Shown here piece after piece: positions 16,920 through 26,886 of a DNA stretch of 64,000 nt. The translations under genes and the position numbers were made by a program. Position 1 is the stretch's first letter. Each line of letters begins with the position of its first letter. Source of the stretch: Acidobacteria bacterium AB60. GTDB taxonomy: Bacteria > Acidobacteriota > Terriglobia > Terriglobales > Acidobacteriaceae. Below the pieces are notes generated by a model, which saw nothing but the letters and a program-made list of their open reading frames with translations, made no database searches and was not told the origin of the DNA. The DNA lies in contig VANK01000014.1 in the NCBI GenBank assembly GCA_008682415.1, positions 1-64,000 of the forward strand, read 5' to 3'.

Positions 16920-18077
16920 CTACTGCAGCGGGCCCTGCTTTTGGGTGTTGGCCTCGAGCTTTTGCACAATATCTCGTTCGCGCTGGCCGTCATCGGGCCG
17001 GTGCAGCTTGTAGTAGATGGCGGCAAGTTCGATGTGCGGATCGATCCAGTTGGGATCAGCTTTCTCGAGGGCTTCGAGAGCGGTTGCGGCCTCGGGCAAC
17101 TTGCCGGTCATGCTGTTGAGTTTGGCCATCTGCAACTGTGCCTGCGGCATGTTGGGGGCGAGTTGCAGTGCGAGTTCAAGCAGCGGACGTGCGCCCTCCA
17201 GATCTCGCTGCTTGAGGCGCATGGTGCCGAGGTACAGGTTGGCCATGGGGTCACGAGGATTCTGCTTGAGAGCCGCTTCAAACGCGGGCATGGCGGCGTC
17301 ACTGTCGCCAAGCGCATCGCGTGCCTGGCCCAGCATGGTTTGCAACCCGGGGAAGTCCGGTGCGATTTTAGCCGCGGCCTCCAGGTCTGCGCGTGCCTCG
17401 TGGAACTCGCGGCGATGCAGGCGCGCCTGGCCGGCGATGACCCAGGCATCGATGGAGTTCGTGGTTTGCGCAGACTTCTCCATTTTGGGAAGCGCTTCCG
17501 CGGCATTACCCGATTCAAGAAGCGCGTAGGCATGCACAAAGGCGAAGTCGGGATTGTCTTCGTTTCCGCGCTCAAGGGGAGCCAGCAATGCGAGCGCTTC
17601 GCGGGCATTGCCAGTCTTGACGCTGCAATATGCGAGCAGCATGAGGGCGGCGGCATCCGAGGGTCGAGCAGCGTGCACTGTGGCAAACTCATCGCGCGCA
17701 TGCGCCCAGTCGGCCTTCTTATAGTAGGCAAGGGCGAGGTTCATACGAACGGCGTTTTTGTCAGGAGCGTTCGCGAGGGCCCGCGTGTCTTCCTGGATGG
17801 CGCCGTCGAAGTCGCCCACCGCGGCCAAGGCGGCGCCCAGGTTGGCGCGCGCTTCGGCGAGACCCGGTTGCAGTTGCAAGGCCTTGCGATAGTCGTCGAT
17901 CGCACTGCGGAGATCGCCCTGTTGCTGGGCAGCGATGCCGTTGCGGAGCAGGTCATCCGCGCTTGCCGCGGAAGGGGCGACCTGGGCGACCTGCGCGACC
18001 GCGACGACGGTAGCGGCGGAGAAACAAGCGGCGGCGATGAGGCGCGGCACGAATCCGCAACGCGCATGAGAACCCAT
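16920..18077 (-). CDS. Secreted TPR-repeat protein
   Basis: A 385-residue protein. It has a signal-like N terminus (CGFVPRLIAAACFSAATVVA) followed by about nine tetratricopeptide repeats, such as LRNGIAAQQQGDLRSAIDDY and ALQLQPGLAEARANLGAALA. No other domain is apparent. It closes the block TPR-CRTAC1-TBDR-CRTAC1-TPR and is convergent with the second CRTAC1 gene, with only two bases between stops. Its upstream side faces the promoter of the cysteine leader ORFs, so the two are divergently transcribed. Role as a periplasmic scaffold is inferred from the fold only. Confidence 0.85.
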   Translation of the reverse strand: MGSHARCGFVPRLIAAACFSAATVVAVAQVAQVAPSAASADDLLRNGIAAQQQGDLRSAIDDYRKALQLQPGLAEARANLGAALAAVGDFDGAIQEDTRALANAPDKNAVRMNLALAYYKKADWAHARDEFATVHAARPSDAAALMLLAYCSVKTGNAREALALLAPLERGNEDNPDFAFVHAYALLESGNAAEALPKMEKSAQTTNSIDAWVIAGQARLHRREFHEARADLEAAAKIAPDFPGLQTMLGQARDALGDSDAAMPAFEAALKQNPRDPMANLYLGTMRLKQRDLEGARPLLELALQLAPNMPQAQLQMAKLNSMTGKLPEAATALEALEKADPNWIDPHIELAAIYYKLHRPDDGQRERDIVQKLEANTQKQGPLQ

Positions 18078-18175
18078 GACGTAAGGATAAAGGCGTGCAG
18101 CGGGGCGAATGCTGCAAGAGGCGGCAATAATTGGGCTTCAGGGCCTGAGGGGGCTGCCCTTTGCGCTACGGCATT

Positions 18176-18203
18176 TTGCCGCCGGCTCAGCCTGTGGTAT
18201 GGT
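18176..18203 (+). promoter_or_regulatory. Candidate promoter for the poly-cysteine leader ORFs
   Basis: TTGCCG (18176-18181), a 16-base spacer and TATGGT (18198-18203). Transcription would begin at about 18209-18211, right at the GTG of the first leader ORF, so that ORF may be translated leaderless. A similar box pair (TTGCCG, 17 bases, TACCAT) precedes the third leader ORF at 22478. Each box matches the sigma-70 consensus in four of six positions. Confidence 0.45.
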
Positions 18204-18209
18204 CATGGG

Positions 18210-18284
18210 GTGATCGGCCGCAACCAACACGTCCGCTGCTCGAGCGCGCTTTTCGCGTTCGCAGCATGTTGTTGTCGCCGCTAG
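18210..18284 (+). CDS. Cysteine-rich leader peptide 1 (24 codons)
   Basis: A GTG-started ORF reading MIGRNQHVRCSSALF then AFAACCCRR and a TAG stop. Three consecutive TGT codons occur just before the end, and an earlier cysteine follows HVR. Such an arrangement is what a ribosome-mediated attenuator sensing charged cysteinyl-tRNA would need. Comparable poly-cysteine upstream ORFs are known in actinobacteria before sulfur genes. Here the gene lies at the head of a region holding a TBDR and cysDNH. The frame is open further upstream, but a promoter-like pair ends just before the GTG. No independent evidence of translation is available from sequence. Confidence 0.6.
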   Translation: MIGRNQHVRCSSALFAFAACCCRR

Positions 18285-18366
18285 TACTCAGCCCGTCACA
18301 CGTTTCCGCATCCCGCGGAATCCCCTGAGCATCAATCCTCCATCTGAGTTCGGAGCACCCGCAGCC

Positions 18367-18441
18367 ATGAACCTTCTGCATCTGCAATCATCCGGTTACA
18401 TCGCCTCTCTGGCGTGCTCGCGCTGTTGTTGTTGTCGCTGA
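18367..18441 (+). CDS. Cysteine-rich leader peptide 2 (24 codons)
   Basis: An ATG-started ORF reading MNLLHLQSSGYIASL then ACSRCCCCR and a TGA stop. Four consecutive TGT codons precede the last arginine. It starts 82 bases after leader peptide 1 and ends 60 bases before the TBDR start. A GGAG lies 11 bases before the ATG. The same design (cysteine run, arginine, stop) occurs twice within 232 bases, which is hard to explain by chance. I found no clear terminator between 18441 and the TBDR start. Control could therefore work through Rho, through mRNA folding around the TBDR ribosome site, or by translational coupling. Confidence 0.6.
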   Translation: MNLLHLQSSGYIASLACSRCCCCR

Positions 18442-18501
18442 ACCTTCGCGCGCGTTCCCCCTTATCCCTTTGATTTCATTTGTACTTTTTGGAGCAAGAT
18501 C

Positions 18502-21500
18502 ATGCCAGTTGTACGCACTTACGGGCGTATTCTCGCCCTGATTCTCGGCTTCCTTCCAATTGTCCCTGTCGCATTCGGGCAGCTGGTGGGAGGCACCATC
18601 ACAGGAACAGTCACCGATCCTTCCGGTTCCTTCCTTGAGGGGGCGAAGGTTACCCTGCGCAATGAAGAGACGGCAACTCAGCGCGACCTGGTTACGAAAT
18701 CCGATGGCACGTTCTCGGCCCCGTCCATTCCCGTGGGGACATGGACTCTGACGGTGGAGACTACGGGATTTGCGCCGCTGACGCGCACGGGCATTCACCT
18801 CACGGTGGGCCAGAGCATCAATCTGCCACTGGTGCTCGCAGTGGGCAAGATCGAGCAGGCCATCACGGTGGTGGACACGCCACCGGCTGTTGACACCTCG
18901 ACGCTGCAGTCGCAGGGGCTGGTAGACGAGAAACAGGTGAAGCAGCTTCCGCTGAACGGCCGCAGCTTTGATCAGCTGTTACAGCTCAATCCCGCGGCGG
19001 TGAGTTATACGACGCAGCGCAGCGGCTCTGTGGGATCGTCGAACTCTTCGGTGGGCAACATGTTCTCGATCTCAGGCCGCCGACCGCAGGACAATCTCTT
19101 CCTGCTGAACGGGATCGAGTACACCGGGGCATCGCTTATCAACGTGACACCTGGCGGCACCAGCGGCCAGTTGCTGGGAGTGGAGGCGGTGCGCGAGTTC
19201 AACGTGGTGACGGATACCTACGGCGCGAACTACGGCAAGCGCACCGGGGGTCAGATCAGCATTATCACGCAGGGGGGCGGCAATCAGCTGCACGGTTCGG
19301 TGTATGAGTTCCTGCGCAACTCGGCGCTGGACGCGCGGAATTACTTCGATCAGGCGCGAATTGCGCCCTTTCAGCGCAACGACTTCGGCGCGGCGCTGGG
19401 CGGACCGCTGCGCAAGAACAAGCTGTTTTTGTTCGGCAACTACGAAGGCTATCGGCAGCATCTGGGTCTGAGCGACTTCACTTTTGTGCCGGATGCCGCG
19501 GCCCGTGCCGCGACGGTTCCGAGCGTTCGTCCGCTGCTGGCGCTGTGGCCAGAGGCTACTACGGATCTCGGCCAGGGCATCGGAGTGGCATATTCGAATC
19601 CTCCACAGCACGTGCGCGAAGATTTCGGGACGGCACGGGTTGACAGCAATCTCACTGCGAATGATCTGTTCTTCGCGGTCTACACGGTGGATGACAGCGA
19701 CGCCACGACCCCGACAGCCAATCCGTTCTCGTCCATTTATGAGCGGCTCCGGGAGCAGGTGCTCAGCGCGCAGGAGCAACATGTGTTCTCGCCGACGCTG
19801 CTGAACACGCTGCGAGTTGGCTACTCGCGCGCCACGTTCGGGTTCCAGAGCATTGTGGAGGGCGGGGTTCCGGGATGGGTGGCAAACGGGCCGGTGGGCG
19901 CGATTGTGATCGCCGGCAGCACCGCGTCCAACGGAGCGTCGCAGATTACGCTGGCGGGAGCCAACACGGGCGCGAACAACTTGACTGCCCGAAATCTTTA
20001 CACGGTTGACGATCACATTTACTGGACACATGGCAAGCACCAGGTAGAAGCGGGTGTGTGGCTGCAACGGCTCCAGTCGAATGATTTTCTGGCGCAGAAC
20101 CAGTACGGGCAAGCATCGTTTTCGACGCTGGCGGCGTTTGAGAAGGGTCAGGTCTCGAAGTATACGATTGTGCCCGGGCCGACGGAGCTGGGCTGGCGCT
20201 CGCTTTTCAGCGCTGGATTCATTGAAGACGCGTGGAAGATCAAGCCGCGATTCGAGCTTCGCGCGGGACTACGAGTGGAGAGTTCCACGGGCTGGAACGA
20301 GACACATAACCGTGCCTCGAACTATCGCTTCACGAATGGAGTTTTGAATACCACGCCTACCGTGGGCTCGTCGGCGCTTAGCGACAATCGCGCTGTCTTT
20401 ATGCCCGAACCTCGCGTGGGGTTTGCGTGGGACGTGTTGGGCAACGGCAAAACGGCGGTGAAGGCCAGCTTTGGGCTGCATCGGGCGTTGCTGGACACGC
20501 TTGATTACCGCCTTGACCAGACGGCGCCGTTCAACACCACGCTGTCGTACAGCAACACAACGGTGGACAAGTTGCCTTCGCTCTCGACGACGTCGGCGAC
20601 AGGCGGGCTGGTTTCGCCCTCGAACGTGCAGCCCAATATTGAGACGCCCACGGTACTTGGCTGGACCTTCCGGATTGAGCAGGAGGTAGCGCCCCGCACC
20701 TCACTTTCGCTGGGCTATGTCGGCTCGCACGGCTACCACCAGATTCTTTCGATCGATCAGAATACGCCGGCATGGGTGGTGTGCCCTGCTGCAGAGTGCC
20801 CTGCGAACGTGCCCAACGGCAGCGTGTACTACACGAGCACCACGCTGGCAAATCCGAAGCTTGCCAACAGCACGTCGTGGATCTCGTCCGGTATCAGCAA
20901 CTACAACGCGCTGGAAGCAGATGTACGCAAGCAGTACGCGAACGGTTTTCAGCTGCGCGGGGTATACACGTGGTCGCGCAACCTGGACGACGGATCGGCG
21001 TGGAATACGAGTGTTTCGTCGAACACGCCAGCTTATGTTTCGTTCCCGGGCAATCCCAAGCTGGATTATGGCCGGGCGGCGACGGACATTAGCAATGCGG
21101 GCGCCATCAATGGCTCGTGGGATTTGCCCTTCGGCAAGGACCACGTGTTCTTCCACGGCATCTCGTCACGCGCAGACCGGTTTGTGGGAGGGTGGTCGCT
21201 CAGCGGCATTCTTTCGGTGCAGAGCGGATTCCCGTTCAGCCCGCAGCTGGGCTACAACCCGAGCGGCAACGGCGACACCCGCAACCCAGTGCGTCCCAAC
21301 TTTAACCCGAATTACCACAGCAAGCTTTACCCGCGGACGCCGCATCAGTGGTTCGATCCCAACGCATTTGAGGCGCCGGTGGCGGGCACGGTGGGCAACG
21401 CTGGCCGGGACACGCTGGTGGGGCCGGGGCTGGTGGATGCGGATATCTCGCTGGCGAAGACGACGAGTGTCAGCGAGCATTTGCATGCCCAGTTCCGGGC

Positions 21501-21681
21501 AGAGTACTTCAACGTTGCGAACCACACGAACTTCACTACGCCGAATGCGGTGGTGTTCTCAACCGGTCCCACGCCCGCCAAGCCAGCAACCGCGGCGGCT
21601 CTGAGCCCCACGGCGGGCGTGCTCACCGGGACGGCGACGACATCGCGACAACTGCAGTTCGCGCTGAAGCTGTTGTTCTAG
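18502..21681 (+). CDS. TonB-dependent receptor with carboxypeptidase-like domain, in the sulfur-assimilation region
   Basis: A 1059-residue outer-membrane receptor. The signal peptide is MPVVRTYGRILALILGFLPI, with cleavage near AFGQ; GGAG lies eight bases before the ATG. It has a carboxypeptidase-regulatory-like domain (GTITGTVTDPSGSFLEGAKV), a plug (QLPLNGRSFDQLLQLNPAAV, GANYGKRTGGQISIITQGGG) and a long barrel ending LQFALKLLF. It follows two poly-cysteine leader ORFs and precedes cysDNH. The inference is uptake of a sulfur-containing compound, such as a sulfonate, sulfate ester or sulfur-bearing chelate, when cysteine is scarce. No sequence feature names the ligand. The overall build is the same as the other three TBDRs in the window. 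Confidence 0.92.
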   Translation: MPVVRTYGRILALILGFLPIVPVAFGQLVGGTITGTVTDPSGSFLEGAKVTLRNEETATQRDLVTKSDGTFSAPSIPVGTWTLTVETTGFAPLTRTGIHLTVGQSINLPLVLAVGKIEQAITVVDTPPAVDTSTLQSQGLVDEKQVKQLPLNGRSFDQLLQLNPAAVSYTTQRSGSVGSSNSSVGNMFSISGRRPQDNLFLLNGIEYTGASLINVTPGGTSGQLLGVEAVREFNVVTDTYGANYGKRTGGQISIITQGGGNQLHGSVYEFLRNSALDARNYFDQARIAPFQRNDFGAALGGPLRKNKLFLFGNYEGYRQHLGLSDFTFVPDAAARAATVPSVRPLLALWPEATTDLGQGIGVAYSNPPQHVREDFGTARVDSNLTANDLFFAVYTVDDSDATTPTANPFSSIYERLREQVLSAQEQHVFSPTLLNTLRVGYSRATFGFQSIVEGGVPGWVANGPVGAIVIAGSTASNGASQITLAGANTGANNLTARNLYTVDDHIYWTHGKHQVEAGVWLQRLQSNDFLAQNQYGQASFSTLAAFEKGQVSKYTIVPGPTELGWRSLFSAGFIEDAWKIKPRFELRAGLRVESSTGWNETHNRASNYRFTNGVLNTTPTVGSSALSDNRAVFMPEPRVGFAWDVLGNGKTAVKASFGLHRALLDTLDYRLDQTAPFNTTLSYSNTTVDKLPSLSTTSATGGLVSPSNVQPNIETPTVLGWTFRIEQEVAPRTSLSLGYVGSHGYHQILSIDQNTPAWVVCPAAECPANVPNGSVYYTSTTLANPKLANSTSWISSGISNYNALEADVRKQYANGFQLRGVYTWSRNLDDGSAWNTSVSSNTPAYVSFPGNPKLDYGRAATDISNAGAINGSWDLPFGKDHVFFHGISSRADRFVGGWSLSGILSVQSGFPFSPQLGYNPSGNGDTRNPVRPNFNPNYHSKLYPRTPHQWFDPNAFEAPVAGTVGNAGRDTLVGPGLVDADISLAKTTSVSEHLHAQFRAEYFNVANHTNFTTPNAVVFSTGPTPAKPATAAALSPTAGVLTGTATTSRQLQFALKLLF

Positions 21682-21836: not shown

Positions 21837-22346
21837 ATGACTACGACCAATGCTGGAGTTTGCCCCACACGCGTGTATCGCAAGCGCTCGGCGCAGCGAA
21901 CCGTCGGCCTCATCTTTGTTGCGGCGGGGCTATTGCTCTGGGTGGCGATCTGGGGCCAGGTAATTCGGGGAACGCGGGAGGGGAGAGTCCTCGACCTACT
22001 GTTTCCGGTGGTATTCACGGCGCTTTGCCTGCTGTTCACGTACCGCGCGCATCAGGCAGATGTACGCACTACGGACGGCTCGATTGTGATGCATACGATT
22101 CTGCGCCGCCATATTTTGCCGTTTCATGCGATTCAGGGGCGGCGAACGTACGTGGATCGCGGGGATGGCGACTATCCGGACGTGTGGCATTTCGTTCTGG
22201 AGTCCAGCGACGAACGCTATCCCAGCCTGGATATCGAGGACGTTTACGACTTCGATCCCACGTTTCGCGGCTGGTTTTATTCTCTTCCCGACCTTGACGA
22301 GGAAGAACGATGGCATGGCCGGCTCACGACCCTGGGTCGGGTGTAG
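21837..22346 (+). CDS. Membrane protein of unknown function with two N-terminal transmembrane helices
   Basis: 169 residues. A good AGGAGG lies before the ATG. The basic N terminus (RVYRKRSAQRT) leads into two hydrophobic helices, VGLIFVAAGLLLWVAIWGQV and LDLLFPVVFTALCLLFTYRA, joined by a short loop. The remainder is a soluble domain rich in aromatic and acidic residues (QADVRTTDGSIVMHTILRRH, WHFVLESSDERYPSLDIEDV). This build resembles bacterial PH-like membrane proteins, but the match is only general. It lies between the TBDR and the cysD attenuator, in the same direction. Whether it belongs to the sulfur regulon is not known. Confidence 0.7.
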   Translation: MTTTNAGVCPTRVYRKRSAQRTVGLIFVAAGLLLWVAIWGQVIRGTREGRVLDLLFPVVFTALCLLFTYRAHQADVRTTDGSIVMHTILRRHILPFHAIQGRRTYVDRGDGDYPDVWHFVLESSDERYPSLDIEDVYDFDPTFRGWFYSLPDLDEEERWHGRLTTLGRV

Positions 22347-22438: not shown

Positions 22439-22467
22439 TTGCCGTTCATTGCAGGCTTTGCTACCAT
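22439..22467 (+). promoter_or_regulatory. Candidate promoter for the cysD leader
   Basis: TTGCCG (22439-22444), a 17-base spacer and TACCAT (22462-22467). The start of transcription would fall at about 22474, only a few bases before the leader ORF ATG at 22478. The boxes resemble those in front of the first cysteine leader at 18176-18203. Confidence 0.45.
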
Positions 22468-22477
22468 AACGATACAC

Positions 22478-22555
22478 ATGTTCCGCGTCTCCTATCGCCG
22501 GTCTTGTTGTCGCCCCTCGAACATCTTCGACGGGTGTCCTCGCACGTCTCTCTGA
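22478..22555 (+). CDS. Leader peptide with Cys-Cys codons upstream of cysD (25 codons)
   Basis: An ATG-started ORF reading MFRVSYRRSCCRPSNIF then DGCPRTSL and a TGA stop. Adjacent TGT codons are at 22505-22510 and a third at 22535-22537. It lies between a promoter-like pair and a terminator-like hairpin that ends 38 bases before cysD. A ribosome paused at the paired cysteine codons would leave 22528-22536 free to pair with the terminator's left arm, whereas one reaching the stop would cover that segment. The position therefore fits classical attenuation. The peptide has only two adjacent cysteines, fewer than the leaders at 18210 and 18367. Confidence 0.55.
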   Translation: MFRVSYRRSCCRPSNIFDGCPRTSL

Positions 22556-22622
22556 TTCCTGAAACATACGATGAAGAGGTCGCACCCGCCGCTGAACGGC
22601 CGGGTTCGCCTTTATCTTTTTT
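22528..22622 (+). promoter_or_regulatory. Transcription attenuator in front of cysD: alternative antiterminator and terminator
   Basis: The terminator arms ACCCGCCG (22584-22591) and CGGCCGGGT (22597-22605) pair with one bulged base around a CTGAA loop. A T-rich tract follows (22611-22622, TTTATCTTTTTT). The segment CGACGGGTG at 22528-22536 can pair instead with CACCCGCCG at 22583-22591; there are eight pairs with one mismatch, six of them in a row. The two structures share the same left arm, so they exclude each other. The antiterminator strand lies inside the leader ORF, 18-26 bases after the last of the paired cysteine codons. Folding was judged by eye only. Confidence 0.6.
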
Positions 22623-22660: not shown

Positions 22661-23620
22661 ATGCCGATCGCAGTTACCCAAAACCCAGCCAGCAGCGCAG
22701 AGTCATCAATGCTCGAGCACCGGCAGCGCCTGAGCCATCTGAAACTTCTTGAAGCCGAGAGCATTGCGATTCTTCGCGAGGTCGCCAGCGAGTTCGAGCG
22801 ACCGGTGATGCTGTATTCGATCGGGAAAGACTCGTCGGTGATGCTCCGGCTGGCCCAGAAGGCCTTCTTTCCCGGGCCGATTCCCTTCCCTCTCCTCCAT
22901 ATCGACACTGGATTCAAGTTCGTAGAGATGCTCACATTCCGAGACGAGATGGCGCGTTCGATCGGGGCGGAGCTGCTGGTATGGCGCAATGAGCCGGCGA
23001 TCGCCGCGGGTACCAATCCGATAGCCCTGGATACGAAGCGTTGCTGCGCTCTGCTCAAGACCGGAGCGCTCCTGGATGCGCTGCGTCACTACAAGTTCGA
23101 CGCAGCCTTCGGCGGGGCACGTCGGGACGAAGAGAAGTCGAGGGCCAAGGAGCGCATCTACTCGTTTCGCGATGAGGCGGGCCAGTGGGATCCCAAGAAT
23201 CAGCGCCCGGAGTTGTGGAACGTATACAACGGCCGTATTCATTCCGGGCAATCGATCCGAGTGTTCCCGCTTTCCAACTGGACTGAGCTGGACGTCTGGC
23301 ACTACATCCATCAAGAGAAGATTCCTGTGGTGGATCTCTACTACGCCAAAGAACGTCCGATGTATGTGCGGGGCGAGATGCTTCTGCCGGTGGAGCACTC
23401 GTTCGTGGCGCTGCCGGGCGAGAAGCCGCAGATGGTGAAGTCGCGGCTGCGCTCGCTGGGGTGCACGCCGTGCACGGGGGCGATCCGTTCCGATGCGAGC
23501 ACGATTCCGGACATCATTGCGGAGTTGTTGAGCTTCCGGTCTTCCGAGCGTGCGAACCGGGTGATTGATCACGACCAGGAGGGCTCGATGGAGCTCAAGA
23601 AGCGGGAGGGCTACTTCTGA
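22661..23620 (+). CDS. cysD: Sulfate adenylyltransferase subunit 2 (ATP sulfurylase small subunit)
   Basis: A 319-residue cytoplasmic enzyme subunit. It makes adenosine 5'-phosphosulfate (APS) from ATP and sulfate, together with the CysN GTPase. The PP-loop is clear as [10 protein letters not shown] in the first quarter, followed by [45 protein letters not shown] and the C-terminal CTPCTGAI. Length is normal. AGAGGA sits before the ATG. The gene follows the attenuator and overlaps cysN by one base (TGATG), so the two subunits are translationally coupled. Confidence 0.95.
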
Positions 23621-25356
23621 TGGCTGCTGTAGCCGACCGTTTTTCGATCGAAGAGTTTCTTGCGCAGGAGCGGGAGAAGGACCTGCTTCGCTTTTCAACC
23701 GCCGGCTCCGTGGATGACGGAAAGTCGACCCTGATTGGGCGGCTGCTGTATGACACTCAGTCGGTGTACGACGACCAGGTCCGGTCGATTGAAGGCAAGG
23801 GCACAACGGCGCCCGGTCAGCTCGATTTCGCGCTGTTGACGGATGGGCTTCGCGCAGAGCGCGAGCAGGGCATCACGATTGACGTGGCGTACCGCTACTT
23901 CTCCACGCCGCGGCGCAAATTCATCATTGCGGACACGCCGGGGCACGAGCAGTACACGCGCAACATGGCCACCGGCTCGTCGACGGCAGACGCGACCATC
24001 GTGCTCATCGACGCGGGCAAGGGCGTCCTGGTGCAATCGCGGCGCCATGCGTATATCGCGTCGCTGCTGCGAGTACGCCACCTTATCGTCGCAGTGAACA
24101 AAATGGATCTCATCGGCTACGATGAGGCCGCCTTCCGCGCGATCGAGCGGGATTTTCGTTCGGTACTCGACAAGATTGCGGAAGACACAGGTAATCCGGT
24201 GGAGGCGGTCTTTGTTCCGGTCAGCGCGCTGAAGGGCGACAATATTGTTCACCGGGCGGCAGAAACTTCAGGGGCCATGCCCTGGTACAGCGGGCCTTCT
24301 CTGCTGGAACTGCTGGAGTCACTTCCGCCTTCGCTGGATACGACCCAGTCTGCGTTCCGCTTCCCGGTACAGCGGGTTGTGCGCCCCGACCACACGTTCC
24401 GCGGATTCGCCGGCCAGATTGCGTCAGGCACGGTGCGCCCGGGCGATGAGATCACGGTTTTGCCCTCGGGCCGGTCGGCGGTGATAGAACGGATTGTCAC
24501 ATGGGATGGCGAGCTTGAAGAGGCGCAGGCGCCGCTCTCGGTCACGCTCGTTCTGGATCGTGAGCTGGACATCAGCCGCGGCGACCTGATCACGGCCGCC
24601 GACGAGCCGGGCCGCTTCACCAATCATCTGAAGGCGTCGGTGGTTTGGATGGATCAGCGGCCGCTTCAGCTGCACCGGCGATATCTGCTGAAGCACGCCA
24701 GCCACCTAGTTCCGGCGGTTGTGGCCAGCATCGATTACCGCAGCAACGTGGCGACGCTGGAGCATGAAGCCGCGACGACTCTGGAGATGAATGCGATTGG
24801 CGTGGTGAACCTGGTGCTGTTGCGCCCGGCGGCGTTCGATCGCTATGCGCTAAACCGAACGACCGGGGCGTTCATCCTGATTGACGCGGAGACGAACGGA
24901 ACCGTGGCGGCAGGCATGGTGACGGCAACGGCACATGCATCAGACACGGAAGAGAATCTGGATACGGGTACGTGGGGTCCGGTGACGGCAGGCGAGCGCG
25001 AAGGACGCTGGGGCCATCGCGGCGCAGTACTCGAGTTAGCTGGTCCAGCATCCCTGATTGATTCCATCGAGCGCTCGTTGTTTACCGTGGGAGTAATTTC
25101 GATTCGGCTGGATCGGGAGTCCGAGTCATTCCGATCTGATCCGTCACTCCTAGCGGCAGTCCTCGGGTTGCAGACGCGAGCGGGCTTTCTGGCGCTGGTG
25201 ACTCGCGCTGGCGATGACGATGGCATTCTGGTCGCCAAGATCGAAGGGCAAGAGATCTTTCTTGAATCGGGCGAGACTATGAAGGCCGTCTCCGCCATCC
25301 ATCAGCTTCTCCACCGCACGGGGGTCTTCCCCTCCACAGAACAGGCGGGATTTTGA
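23620..25356 (+). CDS. cysN: Sulfate adenylyltransferase subunit 1 with a degenerate APS-kinase-like tail
   Basis: 578 residues. The first 440 or so form the CysN GTPase that drives APS synthesis with CysD: P-loop GSVDDGKSTLIGRLL, switch DTPGHEQYTRNM, and NKMDLIGY, then the beta-barrel domains. The tail (about 465-578) aligns in outline with APS kinase of CysNC fusions: GHRGAVLELAGPASLIDSIE then RSLFTVGVISIRLDRE. The kinase P-loop (GLSGSGKST in active enzymes) is missing, the LDGDN motif is altered, and the domain is about 115 residues instead of 180-200. Kinase activity is therefore not expected. This fits the APS-type reductase encoded next door, which does not need PAPS. It overlaps cysD and cysH by one base each. 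Confidence 0.9.
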   Translation: MAAVADRFSIEEFLAQEREKDLLRFSTAGSVDDGKSTLIGRLLYDTQSVYDDQVRSIEGKGTTAPGQLDFALLTDGLRAEREQGITIDVAYRYFSTPRRKFIIADTPGHEQYTRNMATGSSTADATIVLIDAGKGVLVQSRRHAYIASLLRVRHLIVAVNKMDLIGYDEAAFRAIERDFRSVLDKIAEDTGNPVEAVFVPVSALKGDNIVHRAAETSGAMPWYSGPSLLELLESLPPSLDTTQSAFRFPVQRVVRPDHTFRGFAGQIASGTVRPGDEITVLPSGRSAVIERIVTWDGELEEAQAPLSVTLVLDRELDISRGDLITAADEPGRFTNHLKASVVWMDQRPLQLHRRYLLKHASHLVPAVVASIDYRSNVATLEHEAATTLEMNAIGVVNLVLLRPAAFDRYALNRTTGAFILIDAETNGTVAAGMVTATAHASDTEENLDTGTWGPVTAGEREGRWGHRGAVLELAGPASLIDSIERSLFTVGVISIRLDRESESFRSDPSLLAAVLGLQTRAGFLALVTRAGDDDGILVAKIEGQEIFLESGETMKAVSAIHQLLHRTGVFPSTEQAGF

Positions 25357-26057
25357 TGAGCACAATCGAAATTGAGAACCAAACTGCATCGCGCATTGCC
25401 GAAGTCCGAAGCACGTTGGCCCAGGAGATCACCGGAACGAGCGACGTCTGCGTGACCTGCAGCTTCCAGGCTGAGGATGTGTTTCTGACCAAGTTGGCTC
25501 TTGAACTCGATCCGCGAATTCCGGTCCTGTTCCTGGACACGGGATACCACTTCCGTCAGACCTATGAATATCGCGACCAGATTGCGCGGGAGTGGAATCT
25601 GAACCTGATCAACCTTCTGCCCGAGAAGACGGTTGCCGAGCAGGAGGCAGAGCACGGATTACTCTATCGCTCCGCGCCCGACCAGTGCTGCAAGCTGCGC
25701 AAGGTGGAGCCGCTCTTCAAAGCAGTAGCGAACTATCGCGTTTGGGTTACGGGTCTTCGCCGCGAGCAGGCGCGCAGCCGCACGGCGCTGGAGGAGTCGG
25801 CGATGTTTCAGTTGCCTGGCGGCAAGCAGGTGCTGAAGCTGGCGCCGCTCGCATCCTGGACTACGAAAGACGTCTACTACGCATGCCAGCAGTTGGAGAT
25901 TCCGCTGCTGCCTCTTTATGAGCTTGGGTATTCGTCAATTGGCTGCGAGCCGTGCACTACGCTGCCGACTGATCCGAACGATCCCCGCTCCGGCCGCTGG
26001 GCGGGGCAAAAGGTGGAGTGCGGAATCCATATCCAGGCTGCGCCGTCCGCGAACTAG
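25356..26057 (+). CDS. cysH: Adenylylsulfate (APS) reductase, CysH family with iron-sulfur cysteines
   Basis: A 233-residue cytoplasmic enzyme that reduces activated sulfate to sulfite. Seen in order are CSFQAEDVFL (nucleotide-binding loop), LDTGYHF, DQCCKLRKVEPL (paired cysteines), GCEPCT (CxxC) and the C-terminal catalytic ECGIH. The CC...CxxC set binds a [4Fe-4S] cluster and marks the APS-using branch rather than the PAPS-only enzymes. The ATG at 25356 shares one base with the cysN stop; a TTG three bases earlier is not needed. Sulfite reductase is not in the window. Confidence 0.93.
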   Translation: MSTIEIENQTASRIAEVRSTLAQEITGTSDVCVTCSFQAEDVFLTKLALELDPRIPVLFLDTGYHFRQTYEYRDQIAREWNLNLINLLPEKTVAEQEAEHGLLYRSAPDQCCKLRKVEPLFKAVANYRVWVTGLRREQARSRTALEESAMFQLPGGKQVLKLAPLASWTTKDVYYACQQLEIPLLPLYELGYSSIGCEPCTTLPTDPNDPRSGRWAGQKVECGIHIQAAPSAN

Positions 26058-26085: not shown

Positions 26086-26886
26086 ATGGCTTACATTCTC
26101 GGATTCCTGATCGCGCTTTTCATCGCCCTGACCGGGGTGGGCGCGGGCACCATCACGGTGCCAACGCTGGTGCTGTTTCTGGGTGTTCCCTCCGCGGAAG
26201 CCGTAGGGATCGGGCTGATGTTCTCGACGGCGGTGAAGCTGATGCTGGTTCCGGCGCAGGTGGCACGCGGGAACGTAGCGTGGCGGACTCTGGGTTTCAT
26301 GCTGTTGGGAGGTGCGCCGGGGGTCCTGATCGGGTCGTTGTTCTTGAAACACCTGATCACCAGCGGCGCGCAGAACGTGCTGAACGCTCTTCTGGGGCTG
26401 GTCCTGGTGGCTACGGCTGCGTCCCAGCTGATCTTCCATTTCCGCAGTGGGCGGCGGACCGAGCAGGCCGCGGATCGGACAAGCTGGCTGCCATGGTTGA
26501 TGCTTCCGGTGGGCGCTGAAGTGGGCTTCTCCTCTGCCGGGGCGGGGGCGCTGGGTTCGGCGGCACTGCTGACGCTGACACCGCTCAGTCCGGCGCAGGT
26601 GGTGGGTACGGATATTGCATTCGGCTTTTTGGTTTCGCTCATTGGCAGCGGGGCGCATTTCTTCTCGCAGGGGGCGAGCCCTGAGCTGCTGACGAAGTTG
26701 GTCGCCGGAGGACTGTTCGGCGCCATTGCGGGGACGCTGCTGAGTGTTCGAATCCCCCGCCGGCCGCTCCGGCTGGCGCTTTGGATATGGCTGTTGATCC
26801 TGGGAGGCCAGTTCCTGATCACCAGCTACAAAGCGCCAGCCCAAGCGCCGAAGCAGACGGCCAGCCATTTCCAACAAGGGCGCTAG
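26086..26886 (+). CDS. TauE/SafE (TSUP) family membrane permease
   Basis: A 266-residue inner-membrane protein with about eight hydrophobic helices. It begins MAYILGFLIALFIALTGVGA and contains ITVPTLVLFLGVPSAEAVGI, a TSUP signature, and a second-half repeat (AGALGSAALLTLTPLSPAQV). AGGAG lies six bases before the ATG at 26086; the frame upstream overlaps cysH and is not used. It follows cysH by 28 bases, in the same direction. TSUP proteins move sulfite, sulfonates or related anions. Given the neighbours, sulfite export or sulfate/sulfonate import are both possible; direction cannot be read. Confidence 0.88.
   Translation: MAYILGFLIALFIALTGVGAGTITVPTLVLFLGVPSAEAVGIGLMFSTAVKLMLVPAQVARGNVAWRTLGFMLLGGAPGVLIGSLFLKHLITSGAQNVLNALLGLVLVATAASQLIFHFRSGRRTEQAADRTSWLPWLMLPVGAEVGFSSAGAGALGSAALLTLTPLSPAQVVGTDIAFGFLVSLIGSGAHFFSQGASPELLTKLVAGGLFGAIAGTLLSVRIPRRPLRLALWIWLLILGGQFLITSYKAPAQAPKQTASHFQQGR

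Follow-up and report, generated by a model that had tools for sequence, protein, structure and literature searches.

Two short cysteine-rich upstream open reading frames (uORFs) ahead of a gene for a TonB-dependent receptor (TBDR) in Acidobacteria bacterium AB60 are very probably cysteine-sensing attenuator leader peptides of a sulfur-acquisition regulon, two of them acting in series at the TBDR gene. They lie in the first 64,000 nucleotides of contig VANK01000014.1, the whole stretch of DNA analysed here (hereafter, the window). An earlier, sequence-only reading of this DNA had reported both 24-codon ORFs. That finding holds, and such ORFs occur much more often than chance predicts. Of the two, uORF1 ends in AACCCRR-stop with three TGT codons, and uORF2 in SRCCCCR-stop with four. 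The same reading had named the TBDR gene as the target, which is incomplete, since a cysD-cysN-cysH-TauE/TSUP cluster follows and the region is thus a sulfur locus. Likewise, both cysteine uORFs are real, but a third, before cysD (22478–22555), had been missed. The features of the locus are listed below.

18176–18203, + strand: promoter-like pair before uORF1 (TTGCCG at 18176–18181, 16 nt, TATGGT at 18198–18203, with TG before TATGGT), read by eye
18210–18284, + strand: uORF1, Cys leader peptide, GTG start, predicted leaderless, Cys run at 18267–18275
18237–18266, + strand: RNA hairpin immediately 5′ of the uORF1 Cys run, −16.6 kcal/mol
18367–18441, + strand: uORF2, second Cys leader peptide, ATG start, without a promoter of its own, Cys run at 18424–18435
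18403–18413, + strand: GCCTCTCTGGC, a CTCC/CCTCT-type element just 5′ of the Cys run in uORF2, complementary to a Shine-Dalgarno (SD) sequence
18491–18494, + strand: Shine-Dalgarno GGAG of the TBDR gene
18502–21681, + strand: TonB-dependent receptor, 1059 aa, with CarboxypepD_reg and an OMP_b-brl_4 barrel; plug match below the cut-off
22439–22467, + strand: promoter-like pair before the cysD uORF (TTGCCG, 17 nt, TACCAT), read from the sequence
22478–22555, + strand: uORF3, cysD Cys leader peptide MFRVSYRRSCCRPSNIFDGCPRTSL, with an RxCCRxSNIFDGC-like motif common to relatives
22529–22537, + strand: GACGGGTGT, predicted antiterminator strand within uORF3
22576–22622, + strand: intrinsic terminator after uORF3, hairpin at 22576–22612 (−18.9 kcal/mol) followed by TATCTTTTTT
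22661–23620, + strand: cysD, sulfate adenylyltransferase subunit, with a PAPS_reduct domain; the name is based on gene order and our reading
23620–25356, + strand: cysN, GTPase subunit of sulfate adenylyltransferase, with a GTP_EFTU domain; named on the same basis as cysD
25353–26057, + strand: cysH-type APS/PAPS reductase
26086–26886, + strand: TauE/TSUP family permease

A 169-aa ORF without a Pfam match (21837–22346) separates the TBDR gene from cysD in the window, and in seven loci of the same gene order the TBDR and cysD matches are separated by only about 235–560 nt.

Cysteine-rich uORFs were clearly enriched upstream of related TBDR genes. The sample comprised the best 80 of 100 confirmed loci of TBDR relatives, drawn from species-representative genomes of genera including Silvibacterium, Acidicapsa, Terracidiphilus, Granulicella, Edaphobacter, Occallatibacter, and Bryocella. 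Under our strict rule, a poly-Cys uORF was a short ORF of 12–45 codons, with an ATG, GTG, or TTG start, located within 500 nt upstream plus 30, and with either CCC or four or more Cys (CC among them) in its last 16 residues. We counted 78 of the 80 loci (L174 and L176, with a start at the contig end, were left out) and ran the shuffle control on 77 of these (without L175); some loci had less than 500 nt of upstream sequence (271 nt for L097). The sequence-only reading had proposed comparing these upstream regions for Cys runs, and 52 of 78 loci keep at least one poly-Cys uORF, with at least two in 30. On the 77-locus set, these numbers were 51 and 30, compared to 4 and 0 on the reverse strand, and to means of 1.4 (maximum 4) and 0.03 (maximum 1) across 30 dinucleotide-shuffled sets. 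Chance ORFs in GC-rich DNA would thus yield about 1.4 short Cys ORFs per 77 loci, far below the number seen, and the promoter position and codon bias described below also speak against this explanation, whose probability we consider negligible. The inference at the core of the earlier reading, i.e., a putative cysteine-responsive control region acting on an acidobacterial TBDR, is well supported by this comparison.

Under the strict rule, 26 of the 78 loci had no poly-Cys uORF. Among these, four had a weaker Cys ORF (L120, L129, L156, and L159) and two had one farther upstream (L128 and L140), all six behind a promoter, while L167 offered a weak candidate only. A looser rule returned nothing in 19 of the 26, including five Bryobacterales/Bryobacteraceae and four Granulicella loci. 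Across 20 TBDR loci that are paralogous or more distantly related, a looser listing gave two entries, neither of them convincing (one ends inside the gene and the other has no start codon).

The features that persist among relatives fit regulatory codons better than a functional peptide. A role as cysteine-rich micropeptides, for instance in metal or redox binding, would be consistent with the conservation of both Cys runs and short lengths. However, what relatives retain is the Cys runs, promoters, and terminators, whereas the remainder of the peptide varies widely, and the ORFs recur before sulfur genes and the linked TBDR, so that we regard this role as very improbable. The NCBIfam search returned no match for the uORF1 and uORF2 peptides. 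Cys codons in the leaders were mostly TGT (155 TGT to 52 TGC in uORF1 and 98 to 26 in uORF2, with further leader figures of 103:41 and 38:7), compared to 8 TGT and 50 TGC in the 14 large genes of the window.

Genomic context and similar leaders elsewhere link the TBDR to sulfur assimilation. Specifically, cysD was found within the fetched flank in at least 26 of the 80 TBDR loci (a lower bound, given contig ends), which ties the TBDR to this pathway. These 26 cysD genes were located downstream on the same strand in 7 cases, upstream on the same strand in 2, and in divergent orientation in 17, and a Cys-rich uORF preceded cysD in 24 of the 26 loci (shuffled mean 1.3, maximum 3). Sulfite reductase-type (SiR, PF01077) genes also carried Cys leaders, in 24 of the 30 relatives' loci listed under a stricter rule and in 26 under a looser one that takes in the weak cases L188, L199, and L205; in the wider class, the 30 best-scoring loci included 21 with a Cys leader. 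Since Cys leaders are thus also found at cysD and sulfite reductase genes, the TBDR would be one member of a regulon. In contrast to these genes, cysK was rejected as a member, with a leader in 3 of 30 loci under the looser rule; the relatives' SiR and cysK sets are the 30 matches listed for each rather than all matches.

Most first leaders, and few later ones, were found directly behind a promoter. At uORF1, the promoter-like pair noted by the sequence-only reading can be recognized by eye, but a strict consensus scan of 18050–18650 lists no promoter. The −10-like box of the window lies 6 nt from the start codon at uORF1 and 10 nt at uORF3, i.e., in a near-leaderless arrangement. We scored sigma70-like promoters for which the end of the −10 box fell 4–11 nt before the start codon, using mononucleotide shuffles as controls. 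In an unselected test, promoters were identified for 35 of 55 first (farthest) ORFs (shuffled mean 4.7, maximum 7) and 1 of 32 later ORFs (shuffled mean 3.0, maximum 8), as well as in 23 of 24 cysD loci and 15 of 24 SiR loci; 20 of the first ORFs and 9 of the SiR loci had no promoter at the start codon. On hand-listed sets, the corresponding counts were 33/40 for uORF1, 0/28 for uORF2, 21/22 for cysD uORFs, and 11/12 for SiR leaders. These sets were selected: the 40 uORF1 came from 44 (L105, L111, L113, and L136, for which no near promoter was found, were left out) and included in-frame starts picked by eye in L109, L112, L121, L123, and L126, the 28 uORF2 came from 32 (without L103, L114, L118, and L164), the cysD set had 22 members (without L140 and L169), and the SiR set had 12. 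Compared to these, the unselected repeats gave somewhat weaker promoter figures, and stronger terminator and cysD figures. The commonest spacing between the −10 box and the start codon was 6 nt for uORF1 and SiR leaders in the hand-listed sets, such that the transcription start would fall on the start codon. Because they lie directly behind a promoter-like pair, uORF1 and the cysD uORF are probably leaderless or nearly so; uORF2 is probably not.

We propose a mechanism that resembles tryptophan attenuation. The uORF1 transcript would start at the promoter ending right before its start codon, and would probably be translated leaderless. With charged tRNA-Cys in short supply, the ribosome would stall at the TGT codons. 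In sister lineages, such a stall would allow pairing between the 3′ part of uORF1 and the 5′ arm of the terminator that follows, leading to antitermination and transcription of the TBDR gene. With ample cysteine, a ribosome reaching the stop codon would mask the pairing segment and the terminator would form. The same switch is predicted in the window for uORF3 and its terminator ahead of cysD-cysN-cysH-TauE. At the TBDR gene, uORF2 would follow uORF1 as a further leader in series, and uORF1 of the window's clade would act without a terminator. The graded or AND-type response that the sequence-only reading had envisaged for two such sensors would be hypothetical.

Several lines of evidence from related leaders are consistent with this mechanism. 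An intrinsic terminator was identified after the TBDR uORF1 in 24 of 54 scanned loci, falling into three sequence families of 14, 7, and 3 loci when sorted by eye. When scanning TBDR upstream regions for hairpins of −15 kcal/mol or lower with a tail other than the Cys run, 23 of 54 loci were positive, compared to 5–7 in four shuffled sets; at −12 kcal/mol, these numbers were 29 of 54 and 6–15. RNAalifold recovered the first-family terminator unaided from 13 sequences, with 5 of 12 base pairs doubly changed. The 5′ arm of this terminator complements the final codons of uORF1, which come right after the Cys codons. For 14 TBDR leaders, the cognate antiterminator pairing had a mean energy of −18.96 kcal/mol, compared to −15.65 kcal/mol for non-cognate pairings (0 of 20,000 permutations), and for 17 cysD leaders these values were −15.02 and −12.73 kcal/mol (2 of 20,000 permutations), with kinship not removed in either comparison. 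The 17 cysD leaders were taken from 22, leaving out L103, L109, L119, L144, and L164, for which no terminator was seen by eye (nor, for L164, by scan). Comparison with synonymous recodings of the uORFs gave a modest signal: the native pairing was better than the recoded mean (z < 0) in 33 of 37 cases and reached the 5% level in 8, from which the window's uORF3 is absent, as 23% of its recodings pair equally well.

Folding with a ribosome placed on the leader was also mostly in line with the model. The antiterminator was likelier with the ribosome stalled than with the ribosome at the stop codon in 10 of 14 TBDR leaders and 10 of 15 cysD leaders, and less likely in none. The mean terminator probability was 0.64 stalled vs. 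0.94 at the stop codon for TBDR leaders, and 0.67 vs. 0.94 for cysD leaders; for uORF3 of the window, this shift was small (0.85 vs. 0.91). When the transcript was cut before the 3′ arm, as in co-transcriptional folding, 14 of 15 cysD leaders fitted the model, and uORF3 gave values of 0.85 stalled, 0.43 at the stop codon, and 0.83 without a ribosome. The outcome of this co-transcriptional test was mixed for the 14 TBDR leaders, with 6 for and 7 against. Both folding analyses used 15 cysD leaders, as L101 (no hairpin) and L167 were also left out. Given the terminator hairpin and the antiterminator strand of uORF3, we predict trp-like attenuation of the window's cysD operon.

The TBDR leader of the window is organized differently. 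No terminator with a clear T-tract was detected between uORF1 and the TBDR gene, including the interval between uORF1 and uORF2, and in the sole terminator-like match at this leader, the tail is the Cys run (mean of 0.7 in shuffles). Hairpins followed by a TGT run do exist, but we rejected them as terminators: RNA polymerase would already be past the run by the time the ribosome reads it. Whole-leader folding in the window indicated a stability not above that of shuffles, and no Rfam family (S-box, T-box, etc.) matched at gathering score anywhere in the window. The uORF1 hairpin is found as well in near relatives (mean z of −1.89 across 8 loci, including the window's), and a consensus fold of 8 sequences (A2) has 4 of 10 pairs doubly changed.

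Without an intrinsic terminator at the window's TBDR leader, Rho-dependent or mRNA-decay control could be envisioned, in which translation of the Cys leader would protect the transcript, or stalling would expose it. Control of this kind has been proposed for the cys leaders of mycobacteria, and Rho has been suggested for cysteine leaders in Actinobacteria (PMC1262725). However, the cysD leader of the same window and the TBDR leaders of sister lineages do carry intrinsic terminators, and we consider this form of control rather unlikely.

A second alternative is translational attenuation by uORF2 (and by uORF1 in the window's clade), whereby a CTCC or CCTCT element would mask the Shine-Dalgarno sequence of the ORF that follows, except when a stalled ribosome sits on the element. 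Of 28 uORF2, 23 had one of these motifs within the 33 nt that precede the Cys run (mononucleotide-shuffle mean 10.7, maximum 19), with no enrichment in uORF1 (7 of 40, shuffled 10.7), and structure before the uORF2 Cys run was somewhat above shuffles (mean z of −0.86 across 28 loci). Yet the motifs are also frequent in cysD uORFs (10 of 22, shuffled 5.8), and folding of 23 loci did not support this masking as a switch: predicted SD accessibility was the same free and stalled (mean 0.182 in both), stalling raising it in 4 and lowering it in 8, with the site used for at least L132 lying inside the gene and loop pseudoknots outside the model. Translational attenuation of this kind is therefore rather unlikely.

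Returning to attenuation by cysteine-sensing leaders, a more specific scenario is conceivable, and in our view has slightly less than an even chance of being correct. The Acidobacteria would possess a regulon of Cys-sensing leaderless leaders in which the TBDR is gated by two mechanistically different sensors in series, namely a transcriptional uORF1, whose terminator would have been lost or replaced in the window's clade, and a uORF2 of a new type, combining a hairpin and a Cys run, that would act after transcription.

The trp- and his-type attenuators of Proteobacteria combine regulatory codons in a leader ORF, an antiterminator overlapping its 3′ part, and an intrinsic terminator. The acidobacterial leaders share these three parts, except that the amino acid is cysteine and that we predict a leaderless ORF. 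A terminator with a predicted, mutually exclusive antiterminator pairing was found for uORF3 and for uORF1 of sister-lineage TBDR genes, while uORF1 and uORF2 of the window have no terminator. Among receptors, SftP of Pseudomonas putida is a sulfur-starvation TBDR under protein regulators. Both SftP and the acidobacterial TBDR would be outer-membrane receptors for sulfur scavenging, with control exerted in the latter by predicted leader peptides.

The closest parallels are found in Actinobacteria. Mycobacteria have poly-Cys leaderless short ORFs (Canestrari et al. 2020, as cited in the accessible parts of PMC9031893, PMC9094748, and PMC13236596). The mycobacterial and acidobacterial ORFs both have a run of Cys codons close to the stop, lie before sulfur or cysteine genes, and are proposed to act by cysteine-dependent attenuation, and the predicted leaderless start of the acidobacterial ones would be a further similarity; the acidobacterial ones differ by their phylum, the terminator and antiterminator (at cysD and at sister-lineage TBDR genes), the two leaders in series, and the TBDR target. 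Candidate cys leader peptides with Cys-codon runs near the stop were also described before cys operons of Actinobacteria (Seliverstov et al. 2005, PMC1262725), where that study found no conserved terminator hairpins. The acidobacterial leaders have similar Cys runs near the stop, but differ from that description by terminators with compensatory changes. Leader genes have been counted in Acidobacteria, with cysteine not named in the accessible part of that study (PMC4833913). We found no paper on acidobacterial cysteine leaders in the open-access literature; most subscription papers were outside this search, so that absence from print is not implied. What appears to be new is that control by poly-Cys leaders probably also occurs in this phylum, where it is combined with intrinsic terminators, uses two leaders in series, and has a TBDR among its targets.

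If confirmed, poly-Cys leader control would not be peculiar to mycobacteria, and would extend to a second phylum in which it is coupled to classical intrinsic terminators. This would provide a cysteine counterpart of trp attenuation, open to direct tests in soil bacteria that are available in culture (Granulicella, Edaphobacter, Silvibacterium, Acidicapsa), and would assign one of the many acidobacterial TBDRs to sulfur acquisition. A single transport gene with two sensors in series would also represent an unusual regulatory design.

Additional observations were made on other genes of the same and related genomes. A scan of the same genome for CCCR codon runs returned 51 matches, 30 of which were inspected, vs. 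38 for a reversed-pattern control, a difference too weak for naming targets. A sulfite reductase-type gene of this genome (L191, contig C28) has a Cys leader, MQTTSCCRCPSHRAHRSPA, with the ORF end at locus position 939 and a promoter-like site before it. In two other genomes, a PF01077 gene lies about 1–2 kb from the TBDR gene (G044, contig C35, 44390–44860; G083, contig C5, 35455–35940), which represents a further link to sulfur. Across loci L237–L266, PF01077 genes of families f5, f7, and f8 of the class have Cys-rich short ORFs before them, and none was found in the five f6 loci, so that this type of regulation may have an early origin in the class and have been lost in places. Finally, based on similarity to an ORF of L072 that we take to be an Rrf2-family regulator, an Rrf2-like regulator gene is located upstream of the TBDR gene in L128 (7454–7855), L145 (7484–7885), and L149 (1410–1811). 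A protein regulator may thus have been added to, or be used in place of, a leader at these three loci; at L128, uORF1 precedes the regulator gene.
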